NCBI RefSeq assembly: GCF_000621865.1
Contig: NZ_KK211360.1
Location: forward strand, 80,890-144,889
DNA length: 64,000 nt
Direction of reading: 5' to 3'
Source: Pseudobutyrivibrio sp. MD2005
GTDB lineage: Bacteria; Bacillota; Clostridia; Lachnospirales; Lachnospiraceae
Part shown: piece after piece, positions 15,531 through 28,756 of the stretch
Layout: every line of letters starts with the position of its first letter
How positions within the stretch are numbered: the stretch's first letter is position 1
Translations under genes and position numbers: made by a program
Notes under the pieces: model-generated
The model's input: only the letters and a program-made list of their open reading frames with translations
What the model was told of the DNA's origin: nothing
Database searches by the model: none

Positions 15531-16370
15531 ATGATGAATAAGCGAAACATAGAAATTATCTCCTATATATTGATAATATTGGGAGCTATTTTGGCAAGTT
15601 TTTCAGTTGCTCTTATATTGCTGCCTAACGATGCGATTGATTATGGAACTGCTGGCGTGGCAATCATAATTAGCAAGAAGACCGGCTTACCACTTGCACC
15701 ATGTGTTATCGCTGTGTTTGTGCCATTTATTATCCTAGGCTATTTTGTGCTTGGAAGTAGATTTACAATTAAAGCTACAATTGGATCTATCGCATATACG
15801 TTAGGAATAAAGTTTTTTGAAGGCATTCCATTTGAGCTTAATACGGAACACTTTTTAGCGGTAGCATTTGGGGGCGCATTGCTTGGCGCTGGTTTATCAT
15901 TAATTCTAAGAAGTGGCGGCTGTATCGACGGCTCAGAAATTCTAGCAAACATAGTAGTAAAGCGTTTGTCAGATAAGACTGGCCAAAACTATAGCATGAC
16001 TCCGGTTCTGCTTCTGTTCAATGCCGTGGTTTACATTACTGTGTTTATAACAATAGACGCTACAACAGCTTTATTAAGTTTGCTTGTCTATGTAGTGGCC
16101 ACAGCTGTTATTGATCATTACACTGACCATTTCGAATCTATAAAGCAGGTAACCATCATCACCAAAGATGCAGAAGGCATTAGCAAAGATATAAAGCTCA
16201 GGCTTAACAAAACCTGTACCATTATGGATTCAAGAGGTGCTATTGCAGGCGATAACTATACGCTTATTTGCTATATCAGTTATTTCGAACTGCCTATAAT
16301 GAAGGACATTATTTCATTCCATACCGGTAGCTTTAGCACGGTATCTACAATTGATGAGATTTTAAGATGA
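15531..16370 (+). CDS. YitT family membrane protein (DUF161 + DUF2179)
   Basis: This 279-residue protein has about five hydrophobic segments in the first 200 residues and a soluble C-terminal domain (about 205-279) starting FESIKQVTIITKDAEGISKDI. That is the YitT arrangement: a DUF161 membrane region with a DUF2179 cytoplasmic tail. Family motifs seen are the GTAGVAIIISKKTGLP stretch and RSGGCIDGSEILA. Function in this family is poorly known; it is often proposed to be a transporter. TAGGAG is 8 nt before ATG 15531, and a second ATG follows directly. A 15-bp hairpin with T-run, one of the GTATCACTT-type elements, lies 13 nt after the stop. Confidence 0.88.
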   Translation: MMNKRNIEIISYILIILGAILASFSVALILLPNDAIDYGTAGVAIIISKKTGLPLAPCVIAVFVPFIILGYFVLGSRFTIKATIGSIAYTLGIKFFEGIPFELNTEHFLAVAFGGALLGAGLSLILRSGGCIDGSEILANIVVKRLSDKTGQNYSMTPVLLLFNAVVYITVFITIDATTALLSLLVYVVATAVIDHYTDHFESIKQVTIITKDAEGISKDIKLRLNKTCTIMDSRGAIAGDNYTLICYISYFELPIMKDIISFHTGSFSTVSTIDEILR

Positions 16371-16383
16371 TATAGACTATGAT

Positions 16384-16428
16384 ATGAGTATCACTTTGGA
16401 AGATTTTCGAAGTGGTACTCATTTTTTA
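16384..16428 (+). terminator. hairpin terminator of the GTATCACTT family
   Basis: The arms 16384-16397 and 16409-16422 form a stem of about 14 bp with G-U pairs, followed by TTTTTT. Core arms are AGTATCACTT (16387-16396) and AAGTGGTACT (16410-16419) around a 13-nt loop. It resembles the tandem hairpins at 16500-16750 but is 113 bp out of their register. Confidence 0.65.
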
Positions 16429-16499
16429 TACATTCAGTTAGTTGGAGGAATCTAGGAAATTTCATTGAGCCATTTACTGTTTGGTCACTTTAACCGAGA

Positions 16500-16750
16500 A
16501 GTATCACTTTTAGCGATTTTTTCTAAGTGATACTCAATTTTGGTGAAAAATAGGTTGTTTTCATATTTTTGAGTATCACTTTAACCTTATAATTCAAAGT
16601 GATACTGATATTTTTGAAATCTCTGTTGATTTTTGCTTTTTCAAGTATCACTATTTAAATCTGGCAAATAGTGATACTTGTTTTGGTGTTTTTTATTGAT
16701 ATTTGGTAGAATCTGAGTATCACTTTTAAAATTGTAAATAAAGTGATACT
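16500..16750. repeat. array of four palindromic hairpins with an exact 72-bp period
   Basis: Left arms AGTATCACTT start at 16500, 16572, 16644 and 16716. Right arms AAGTGATACT start at 16525, 16597, 16669 and 16741. Every unit is a 10-nt arm, a 15-nt loop and a 10-nt arm, and every linker is 37 nt. Arms are conserved but loops and linkers differ in sequence. The third unit has ACTA/TAGT in place of ACTT/AAGT, a compensated change that keeps the pairing. Linkers are T-rich on the + strand, and two share TTTTGGTG. This could be tandem degenerate duplications of a terminator-like element, a row of protein-binding palindromes on one helical face (72 bp is about seven turns), or folded RNA. I do not recognise it. 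Confidence 0.85.
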
Positions 16751-16811
16751 TTTTTATGCAGCGTTTGAATGGTTGTAAGTGCTTTTCCAATTGTTTTAAC
16801 TGGAAAAGATT

Positions 16812-17391
16812 ATGAAAGTTGCAACAGCTGGAACCTGCGGTCCTTAGAACGGTAGGATTGATTTCTATTGAAAACATCCAGCCAGGAGATATGGTTTATG
16901 CCAAGGAAACAGTTGGTGTAGAACAATCCGTAGATGTAAGTCAGGATGCTGAGACCGCTCCGGTACTTGAAGTATTCTCACATGAGGTTGATGAGACATA
17001 CATCGTAACTATTGATGGCGAGGATATTGAGACTACTGCAAATCATCCATTCTATGATGAAGATGGCGAGCAGGTAGAGGCTAAAGATCTTGAAGAAGGC
17101 GATGAGCTCACAACCGAAGATGGTAGCACAGCTTCAGTAGATTCTGTTGAATGCGTACATCATGATGAACCAGTAACTGTATACAACTTCTGTGTAATGG
17201 AAGACCATACTTACTTTGTAGGTGAGCATGGGGTACTGGTGCATAATGAATGTGATGGATCAGCACTTGATAGCTTCGATAAAAAAGTAAAGGAAAGCAG
17301 AACAAAATGGGGGAAGGAGCATGGAAAAGGTAATGTTAAGCATAATAATGCGATAGAAGACGAGTTGGATAAGGCTCGCCAGAACCATTAA
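16812..17391 (+). pseudogene. remnant of a polymorphic toxin: pretoxin Hint domain, frameshifted
   Basis: From 16834 the sequence reads as a Hint/intein-like autoprocessing domain: GLISIENIQPGDMVYAKE, TANHPFYDEDGEQ, YNFCVMEDHTYFVGEHGV and terminal VLVHNE. Upstream, the AGT motif that normally follows the first cysteine is in another frame (ATG 16812), one base out and ending at a TAG. The catalytic N-terminal cysteine is absent. The large N-terminal export part of such toxins is missing, and after the cleavage site only 47 residues of toxin domain remain (KEHGKGNVKHNNAIEDEL). The gene stops exactly where the convergent AbiE module begins. It is best read as a dead fragment of a contact-dependent or Rhs-like toxin. 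Confidence 0.75.
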
Positions 17392-18290
17392 AAAATATCT
17401 TTTGTAAATTCCATTATAAATGCCTTCACATCTTGATATGAAATCTCATCAGATATGAGATTTCTAGTGGTACGCTCGTAATCATTTTCGTAGAAATCTT
17501 TATCACAAAATTCTTTGATTGTGGCAGCTATATCTACGCTAGGCTCGGCAGAAGGAGCTACATTATCTTTTATTTCTAATCTATGATTACGAACCTCAGT
17601 GACAAGAGATTTGAAATTTTCATCTACTGCAACTTGCTGTCCAAGCTTATAAATATCATATAGATGGCGTGAGTTTCTTGCAGCTTTGTTTTGAATGTAG
17701 TAGTCACATAAAGCAAACAGCTTATCAATCAATGTTCGCTCTAAAGATTGCACCTGCATAGGAAATGGCAGAAGATTATACTCTTCAATTAATTCAGGTT
17801 CCTCATCTTTTAAAGCTTCATAGATATAGTTTCCTATCATTCTCTCTTCGGTTGGAAAAGCATAAGACATTAGGGCAGTTTCCAGCTTTACATATGTAGT
17901 CAAAAAAGGATTATCTACTATGGAGCTATATGCAAAATCGTAGTGATTGTAATCTTTATTACTTTCAATAGAATCCCAGTTTGCTATTGTAAATCCTAAT
18001 TTATCTGCAATGGATTTTAAGATATCGTATTTAAGATTCTTTCTTCTGCTTTTTCCTAAATGTTCAGTGAATGTAATATCAATATCTTCTGAAAAACGAT
18101 CTATTACTCCAAAGGCCTTCGAAAGAGAAGTGCCGCCTTTAAAGCAGATAGGATAATCACATGAAGAAAGCTCCTTAAGGATAATTGTGACATAGTAATC
18201 CTTCTCTATGATATCTTGGGCTTGACCCATCTTTTCTGCAGTAAGGGCGACGGTATCGCCAAATAATTCTTTATCATTGTGCAAGTACAT
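17388..18290 (-). CDS. abiEii: AbiEii-type nucleotidyltransferase toxin
   Basis: The 300-residue protein carries the DNA-polymerase-beta-like nucleotidyltransferase signature of AbiEii/AbiGii toxins: KGGTSLSKAFGVIDRFSEDIDI, with the glycine-rich motif at residues 52-58 and the paired acidic residues at 69-71. In the type IV toxin-antitoxin system AbiE, such toxins act on NTPs or tRNA and block growth, giving phage abortive infection. The start overlaps the end of the upstream abiEi gene by 17 nt on the same strand, so the two are translationally coupled, antitoxin first. Its stop overlaps the stop of the Hint remnant. A 63-bp near-identical copy of its codons 83-104 lies at 20533-20595. Confidence 0.9.
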   Translation of the reverse strand: MYLHNDKELFGDTVALTAEKMGQAQDIIEKDYYVTIILKELSSCDYPICFKGGTSLSKAFGVIDRFSEDIDITFTEHLGKSRRKNLKYDILKSIADKLGFTIANWDSIESNKDYNHYDFAYSSIVDNPFLTTYVKLETALMSYAFPTEERMIGNYIYEALKDEEPELIEEYNLLPFPMQVQSLERTLIDKLFALCDYYIQNKAARNSRHLYDIYKLGQQVAVDENFKSLVTEVRNHRLEIKDNVAPSAEPSVDIAATIKEFCDKDFYENDYERTTRNLISDEISYQDVKAFIMEFTKDIF

Positions 18291-18900
18291 TGTCTAACCT
18301 CAATTCATAATAAAATTTGAATGCTGTGAGTGGAAACTTTCTTATATATTCATCCACGTCGCTTCTTTTTATGTTATGTGATTCAATAAATTTCAAGAAG
18401 CATTGTCTGGCTTCTTCATAATCATAATCTAAATATGAGTCTAAATCCGACAATAGATACAGCATTTGTAATATGTATACGTTTTCTTCGGTGATGGCTG
18501 TAAGTGGCTTTTTTACATTAAATTTTCTGTTACCAATAATAACATCCCTAGGGGCTGAGTTAGTGTTGTTACTTACTATCTCAACTACATGAGGAACCTG
18601 GGTAGAGATGCCAATCTGATTTGCAAAGGTATTTCCTGTATAGAATCCATCAACCTTTCCATTCTTGACTATAAATCTATATTTGGCAACGGTATCTGCT
18701 GTTGGTCCAACTGCTGATTTAAGCCTGGTTTTCTTTGGTATATAATAAATGCCATTATCATACTTAGCAAGCACCCCCTTTTTGCATAGCGTAGATAGCT
18801 GCTGGGTAAGGGCTGGCTTTGAAATAGTGCCATCATATATATCTGAGAAGAAGATTGGCTCACCTTCTTTATACTTATCTTTTATGTAATTGTATATCAT
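18274..18900 (-). CDS. abiEi: AbiEi-type antitoxin / transcriptional regulator
   Basis: This 208-residue protein has an N-terminal winged-helix region (about residues 1-55: IFFSDIYDGTISKPALTQQLSTL then GVLAKYDNGIYYIP), typical of AbiEi antitoxins and the related DUF6088 proteins, and a C-terminal domain that in characterised AbiEi is needed for antitoxicity. It precedes and overlaps abiEii, the standard order. AbiEi of other bacteria represses its own promoter by binding inverted repeats; matching repeats are present just upstream. A GGCGGTGAT ribosome-binding site precedes the ATG at 18900. Base composition is similar to the neighbours, so transfer is suggested only by context. Confidence 0.85.
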   Translation of the reverse strand: MIYNYIKDKYKEGEPIFFSDIYDGTISKPALTQQLSTLCKKGVLAKYDNGIYYIPKKTRLKSAVGPTADTVAKYRFIVKNGKVDGFYTGNTFANQIGISTQVPHVVEIVSNNTNSAPRDVIIGNRKFNVKKPLTAITEENVYILQMLYLLSDLDSYLDYDYEEARQCFLKFIESHNIKRSDVDEYIRKFPLTAFKFYYELRLDNVLAQ

Positions 18901-19978: not shown

Positions 19979-20017
19979 TAGTATCACTTTGAAAGAATTC
20001 AATGTGATACTATTTTT
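19979..20017 (+). repeat. single GTATCACTT-family hairpin, probable terminator
   Basis: The arms 19980-19993 and 19998-20011 pair with one mismatch and are followed by ATTTTT. The core arms match the 16.5-kb array but the loop between them is 12 nt, not 15. Confidence 0.6.
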
Positions 20018-28716: not shown

Positions 28717-28756
28717 AAGTATCACTTTAAAAATTTCAAATAAAGTGATACTTTAA
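28717..28756. repeat. single GTATCACTT-family hairpin
   Basis: The arms 28717-28729 and 28741-28753 form a perfect 13-bp stem. As in the 16.5-kb array, core arms AGTATCACTT and AAGTGATACT are separated by exactly 15 nt, and the loop is close to that of the last array unit. It lies in the gap upstream of the minus-strand lipoprotein gene. Confidence 0.75.

Follow-up and report, generated by a model that had tools for sequence, protein, structure and literature searches.

Arrays of palindromes at whole-turn spacing in Pseudobutyrivibrio and their linkage to a predicted nuclease-like protein family

The window array and its neighbours

The stretch of DNA analysed here (the window) comprises 64,000 nucleotides of a Pseudobutyrivibrio genome, namely C6:80890-144889 of G000 (3.09 Mb, 26 contigs, 99.98% complete). 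A gene encoding a YitT-family membrane protein (15531-16370, forward strand; PF02588) is the upstream neighbour of the array studied in this work, and a remnant with a pretoxin HINT (PT-HINT) domain (16819-17391, forward strand; PF07591) is the downstream one. Next to them, on the reverse strand, we identified a homologue of the AbiEii nucleotidyltransferase toxin (17388-18290; PF08843) and a DUF6088 protein in the AbiEi position (18274-18900; PF19570). A preliminary description of this sequence had placed a toxin remnant and an AbiE system here, and both proved to be real by profile match (PT-HINT, AbiEii, DUF6088).

The array consists of four 35-bp palindromes. Its left arms, AGTATCACT(T/A), are found at 16500, 16572, 16644 and 16716 and its right arms at 16525, 16597, 16669 and 16741; loops measure 15 nt, linkers 37 nt and the period is 72. 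When rechecked, the coordinates, lengths and period given earlier for the four hairpins were all exact. Units 1 (16500-16534) and 2 (16572-16606) have plus orientation, units 3 (16644-16678) and 4 (16716-16750) minus orientation, each with arms around an asymmetric core, and unit 3 carries one two-sided matching arm change. The units are separated by linker 1 (16535-16571), the central linker (16607-16643), which holds the dyad of the array, and linker 3 (16679-16715).

The octamer AGTATCAC has 16 occurrences in the window, where 1.5 would be expected (0/100 shuffles as high). Single copies of the array's sequences were also detected. A terminator-like hairpin 3' of yitT (16384-16422, forward strand) has the array's arm sequence followed by a T-run; its arm begins 113 bp ahead of unit 1, off the 72-bp register. 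A lone hairpin at 19980-20011 (forward strand), with the array's outer arms and a short T-run, looks terminator-like by eye, and a lone copy of the 35-bp unit lies in a divergent intergenic region (28718-28752).

Recurrence, spacing and arm types of the arrays

The four-unit array of this arm type (own type) occurs seven times in the genome: on C6, C1, C2, C5 and C9 and twice on C4. All seven have four units, unit-to-unit distances of 72-74 bp and a total length of 251-253 bp. There are 23 exact units in G000, and 28 array units with relaxed arms. On C4 the two arrays (C4a and C4b) duplicate one another, which leaves six independent arrays. The gene surroundings of the seven look unrelated. 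GTATCACT/AGTGATAC was invariant in 24/24 units of the six independent arrays, or in 27/28 units with the duplicate C4b, in which one arm base is changed.

We assigned the orientation of the 28 units by unsupervised, position-blind expectation-maximisation and obtained ++-- polarity in 7/7 arrays, six of them independent (margin of the weakest unit 2.6). The loops had been called variable. Their sequences do differ from unit to unit, but they are not free, as the orientation model detected an asymmetric core. Outer linkers were 37 bp long in 7/7 arrays and middle linkers 38 bp in 5/7. Linker identity among the six arrays was 0.384 at the same index, 0.386 at other indices and 0.31 after shuffling. 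Since linkers are near-random while arms are almost unchanged, recent duplication is unlikely, whereas lasting selection on arms and length would give such a pattern. An ancestral terminator duplicated in tandem, as had been considered before, does not fit linkers that are equally unlike at corresponding and non-corresponding places. Chance local duplication is contradicted by the presence of seven such arrays and by the 10.5-bp multiples in a second family described below.

The AT profile of 18 linkers has a periodicity of about 10 bp, with power at periods of 8.5-11.5 bp above 2000/2000 shuffles, a maximum at 9.5 and common peaks at approximately 4.5, 13.5, 24.5 and 33.5 bp. Over the full 72-bp profile the power was again highest at 9.5 bp and about five times lower at 10.5; the bending signal is therefore confined to the linkers. 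We take this periodicity as a hint, not proof, that the DNA is bent within a complex of two-fold symmetry.

The compensated change in unit 3 (ACTA/TAGT) had been read as a sign that arm pairing is under selection. Over 12 arm positions of the 28 own-type units we counted 28 one-sided changes, 1 compensated change and 3 that were two-sided but unlike. The change in unit 3 is the sole compensated one, and at its position 7 units deviate, 6 of them on one side only. At position 12, the start of the core, we located 13/28 of the one-sided changes. A further 91 units of the GGATGCAT type, chosen with ≤1 mismatch in each 7-bp half-site, a limit under which compensated changes could still occur, had 58 one-sided, 0 compensated and 4 two-sided unlike changes at positions 1-8, and 121, 15 and 8, respectively, at positions 9-11 (core edge). 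With 28 one-sided changes against 1 in the own type, selection on pairing finds no support.

A search of related genomes, as proposed in the preliminary description, detected the exact own unit pattern in 0/60 relatives, of which 28 belong to the genus, where arrays with different arms are nonetheless abundant. Arrays of TTTATCA(C/A)...(G/T)TGATAAA (B-type) have spacing that alternates between 43 and 30, with a period of 73 bp. Their chains (n = 21) range from 4 to 21 half-sites, with 8 as the commonest number (7/21), and their polarity varies, unlike the ++-- of the own type. AT power peaked at 10.5 bp in the 25-bp spacer and at 8 bp in the 37-bp core. Three arrays of G003 (C1:2236653-2237386, L120; 1482449-1483007, L118; 2255406-2256098, L121) have expanded to 16-21 half-sites; their inner units are nearly identical, which gives the impression of recent tandem amplification. 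Among 299 genomes of the family, 17 had a match to the B-type pattern, two of them in the genus (G000 and G014); we fetched all 16 matches from the remaining 15 genomes, and the array scan accepted none of them.

The GGATGCAT pattern matches 16/29 genomes of the genus, or at least 15 when G027, which is coding-like by eye, is set aside. We measured unit-to-unit distances in 27 fetched regions and in the metA array of G020 (<140 bp, one of 146 excluded). The 91 distances fall at 43, 52-54, 61-65, 72-73, 84, 93-95, 105-106 and 126-127 bp; the best period is 10.45 bp (R = 0.905; R = 0.904 at 10.5 bp), several distances being from orthologous arrays and hence not independent. The 19 distinct distances alone gave R = 0.82 at 10.50 bp. 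As the seed pattern could bias only distances of 46-70 bp, we also took the 21 distances beyond this range, for which R was 0.913 (0/20,000 uniform draws as high). The earlier suggestion that the palindromes lie on one face of the helix is supported by this second family. Within the class, units are spaced by 4-10 and 12 helical turns in many arm types, and the GGTATAAC family (75-bp period) and the L163 array (49-51 bp) are off whole turns by about 1.5 bp or more. At L162:7004-7299, in a random sample of G003, a 52-bp unit with ACTGCC arms stands six times in nearly identical form.

A generic array scan of 60 stretches of G000 (1.16 Mb: C3, C4, C7, C8 and most of C9) detected 16 arrays, four of them already known, in addition to the window array. 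By eye they represent about nine arm types, and the guaA array of this genome is a tenth. This degenerate array (L317) was missed by the scan, and the array counts should therefore be read as minimum values. No open reading frame of 90 aa or more encloses any of the 16. We detected 0 arrays in shuffled stretches of G000 (one mononucleotide shuffle per stretch), 0 in 50 kb of E. coli and 0 in a 399-kb sample of G010. A 400-kb sample of G003 yielded L162, L163 and one false positive, a serine-rich coding repeat (L166). Median periods of ten arm words from the scanner, an overcount as some belong to one arm type, were 52-53, 62 and 72-75 bp (R = 0.84 at 10.5 bp, p ~1e-4).

Outside these genomes the own arm matched twice in genome_contigs (about 2 expected, a rough estimate) and four times in viral_contigs, and none of these matches passed the array scan. 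Phages gave no match to the own array (E ≤ 0.01) and plasmids none to the B-type metA array. A search for the array pattern with a 37-38 gap returned 17 contigs, two of which pass the array scan. These are IMG/VR contigs with array-like repeats at L215:1283-1583 (ATTAAC 31/35) and L224:698-1020 (TGATAA 29/43), and they may be misbinned chromosomal DNA. We found nothing on such arrays in the open-access literature.

The neighbouring genes were compared by eye, using the beginning of each adjacent reading frame, and ten neighbouring proteins were profile-scanned. The toxin/AbiE neighbourhood of the window is not common to the arrays. Defence-type genes near arrays are AbiEii beside two arrays, Imm70, DUF1016 and a Gp49/HTH pair; like the window array, one array of G010 has an AbiEii gene close by (L113:4179-4997). 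A common regulon was considered, as lysine/methionine-type genes stand near several B-type arrays (by eye), and failed for the other arrays. Clustering at terminus or origin was likewise dropped: by our reading of the GC skew the B-type arrays of G010 are mid-replichore, and the G003 sample was unclear. We looked at 54 arrays for gene orientation (L111 and L127 left out; 2 unclassified). Divergent regions hold 2/52 classified arrays, compared with 10/63 background gaps of at least 350 bp; that arrays are rarer there is suggestive only.

Arrays lie downstream of metA in 4 of 27 metA-bearing genomes (G012, G003, G010 and G000, the last partly masked). G020 has the same MetA protein as G012 but a GGATGCAT array at metA, where G012 has another type; such places are thus reused while arms turn over. 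On the 3' side of metA (L168-L195) the sequence is wholly different in most of 12 species, and G018 has there an integrase-like reading frame (by eye). This side of metA looks like an insertion hotspot. Rfam skipping-rope RNAs were detected at L114:1701-1784 and L122:2182-2265, approximately 0.5-1.3 kb from metA arrays.

A protein family encoded beside the arrays

A gene of ~270 aa follows the GGATGCAT array at guaA, and through it we found an unnamed family of proteins of ~260-280 aa, with genes beside arrays of six arm types. An array lies within ~270 bp of 14/14 members found in the genus, most of these loci having been retrieved for an array at or near the place. Among the 14 are three members from stretches whose choice did not depend on an array at that place (L163, L317, L324), and 3/3 have one. 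We estimate that chance adjacency would be about 2% per member, at roughly one array per 70 kb.

The member at L163, from the GC-skew sample, has a fifth arm type on both flanks, and those at L317 and L324, in tiles of G000, each have an array upstream. On C5 the own-type array lies 205 bp upstream of the GTG start of a member and 271 bp from the first ATG. The G003 member stands between two TTGATAAA arrays, the G010 member (L111) has a TTGATAAA array on its 3' side, and in G012 (L114) a GGTATAAC array 3' of the gene touches the stop codon. Most arrays adjoin no family member, and for the own-genome arm types TTACCACTG, TTGCGATA, TACTTGT, GGCTAAT and TACAGT no member was seen in the stretches read. 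Downstream of a relative on a human-gut contig (L278) we counted 9 GTTGC/GCAAC half-sites in 392 bp, compared with 7 in 3033 bp upstream. These half-sites are irregular and do not pass the array scan, and the excess is only suggestive.

The C-terminal 120 residues matched PADLOC PDC-S68 in 7/7 proteins (3e-24 to 5e-31). This part also matches the C-termini of plasmid AAA/RecD-like and RecQ-type proteins and, weakly, phage endonuclease families and HEAT_CxxC_PDDEXK. The motifs RSKSE, YE, PDF and WEH are invariant in the family; the lysine of (D/E)XK is missing from its customary position (WEH[LF]G). We read the C-terminal domain as PD-(D/E)XK-like, a prediction from these matches and motifs. 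Pfam and NCBIfam gave nothing above the curated cut-off, the PDB no relative at E ≤ 1, and none of 47 viral pattern matches was confirmed as a relative.

The N-terminal part, by eye a coiled coil and a small module, is more variable: among 11 computed pairs of differing arm type, identity was 14-31% in the N-terminus and 33-54% in the C-terminus. In the protein tree two TTGATAAA proteins of different species group together (100/99), the own-genome GTGATACT protein is sister to this pair (89/89), and the GATAGTAA protein is sister to the GGATGCA proteins (98/95); long branches leave some placements uncertain.

The guaA place was compared in seven species. The gene next to guaA has in all of them a promoter-like TTGACA/TATATT pair, a leader of ~110 bp, a five-unit array and then the start codon, 11-12 bp behind the last array arm. 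With half-sites located at ≤2/8 mismatches, arms were 94% identical, loops 48% and linkers 49%. The layout 53/53/94/63 is kept within 1 bp, and in G000 it is 53/53/105/62, the 94-bp gap being widened to 105 bp, by one extra turn. In all seven species the part of the leader that separates promoter from array contains a well-conserved block, CACTATC..GGC..TTCATTTCGCC..TTAT.CCA. The position of the array between promoter and start codon suggests autorepression. On C5 the array and the gene are separated by a promoter-like TTATATTA; the roadblock layout is therefore not general and was seen at guaA only.

Interpretation and alternative explanations

The arrays form a class: their arms are conserved, their units are spaced by whole turns, and they are tightly linked to one protein family. 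A tandem DNA-binding array was among the readings proposed at the outset, and recurrence in the genome and 10.5-bp spacing favour it as the probable one. We infer cooperative binding of the family proteins to the arrays in duplex form, by which they would control their own genes. At the window, eight half-sites (AAGTGATACT) form four 35-bp palindromes with centres about seven helical turns apart. These would be occupied by four protein dimers on one helix face, symmetric (++--) about the middle linker, and the DNA between dimers may be bent or wrapped. The likeliest binder would be the cognate family member of ~260-280 aa, with the variable N-terminal part reading the arm. For the window array this would be the protein encoded beside the sister array on C5, as judged from adjacency and from a protein tree that follows arm type. 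Arrays beside their own family genes are probably autoregulatory operators, and a bound guaA array would block polymerase. Distant copies such as that in the window might serve as further docking sites that retain the protein, titrate it or label its sites of action; this is the weakest step. Taken as a whole (duplex-DNA platform, cognate binder, autoregulation, distant docking sites), we consider this explanation rather probable.

A bolder version would have ten or so parallel systems per genome. In each, a nuclease-like protein keyed by its N-terminus to its own arrays would regulate in cis and build multi-dimer complexes elsewhere. Arm specificity would diversify like a self/non-self code, with array DNA marking self or array loss being punished. 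We offer this version tentatively and think it unlikely.

The arrays might instead be non-autonomous mobile elements, REPIN/BIME-like, spread now or once by the neighbouring nuclease-like protein, so that their form would reflect the mobilising complex and not a host function. They are dispersed and intergenic, with several families per genome; arrays flank the gene on both sides at L120 and L163; and the G003 expansions of 16-21 half-sites, the differing array content at metA in sister species and the Y1 transposase matches in the B-type-rich genomes G003, G010 and G014 point the same way. However, C4a/C4b is the only recent copy set among own-type arrays, linkers are saturated while arms have hardly changed, no target-site duplication was seen by eye at the ends of own-type arrays, and orthologous places are kept with their layout (guaA in 8 species, metA in 4/27 genomes). 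We judge this reading improbable. To the same degree we doubt that the arrays are platforms of an unrelated host protein of DNA architecture or regulation, with the nuclease-like genes merely near them or using them. The linker AT periodicity, which suggests bending, would suit such a protein, as would the arrays that stand alone (most of them), neighbours without a common function (by eye) and whole-turn spacing in other arm types too, but it is improbable that a single host protein recognises some ten different arms. Moreover, arm type follows the branch of the neighbouring protein, and the 3/3 members outside the stretches picked for arrays had arrays as well.

A multi-hairpin RNA, or a set of transcription terminators, had also been proposed. 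The units can fold (MFE z = -7.0 for 16380-16770), the same arm is used by the yitT terminator-like hairpin, and arrays often stand 3' of genes. Against this, compensatory stem changes, the mark of a structured RNA, are almost never seen and nearly all arm changes are one-sided. Spacing locked to 10.5 bp has meaning for duplex DNA, a T-run directly behind the right arm is missing in most units (by eye), and Rfam gave no match on the arrays of nine loci and the searched part of the window. The RNA or terminator reading is largely refuted, and we regard it as very improbable.

Comparison with known systems

The duplex-DNA reading can be set beside several known systems. REP, BIME and REPIN elements resemble the arrays in being extragenic, dispersed palindromes with regular spacing, alternating orientation and several families per genome, as far as they are characterised in PMC2817692 and PMC3116915. 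The arrays share these features (0/16 in an open reading frame of at least 90 aa, half-sites alternating, spacing regular). According to the same sources REP-family units are thought to be mobilised by RAYT transposases, and there too the gene of a DNA-acting enzyme is flanked by its own repeats (PMC2817692, PMC3116915). The differences are as follows. The protein adjoining the arrays is PD-(D/E)XK-like by prediction. REP copy number is usually >100 per genome, compared with 7 own-type arrays and 28 units here. The arrays are spaced at whole turns with strict lengths and have uncompensated half-sites, not conserved stem pairing. When compared by eye with the REP table of PMC2817692, the arms AGTATCACT, TTTATCA and ATGCATCC do not have the GTAG/GTGG-type tetranucleotide at the palindrome foot. 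Y1/RAYT (PF01797) gave 0 matches in G000, which rules against REPIN/RAYT for the own-genome arrays; 10/29 genomes of the genus have one.

A CRISPR array was rejected, because only the arms are kept, the unit cores differ and the array had no phage match at E ≤ 0.01. PDC-S68, a candidate for phage defence in PADLOC, has a C-terminal domain homologous to that of the family. Its models are 1202-1273 aa long with the domain at the end, whereas the family proteins have ~260-280 aa, their own N-terminus and a link to arrays. NrdR-box pairs and plasmid centromere arrays are palindromic sites at whole turns, on one face, with cooperative binding. Those sets belong to one regulon or plasmid locus, whereas here about ten specificities stand at unrelated genes.

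In summary, these results suggest that the arrays and the nuclease-like protein may constitute a new kind of DNA-control system in the genus. Spacing in whole turns, which recurs inside species and across them, points with unusual clarity to a large protein-DNA assembly that forms cooperatively, and this evidence comes from genome sequences alone. The class also offers many natural protein-site pairs for the study of changing DNA recognition. If the linked proteins bind the arrays, the family would combine an evolvable DNA code with genome-wide docking, outside REP-RAYT, CRISPR and restriction-modification.
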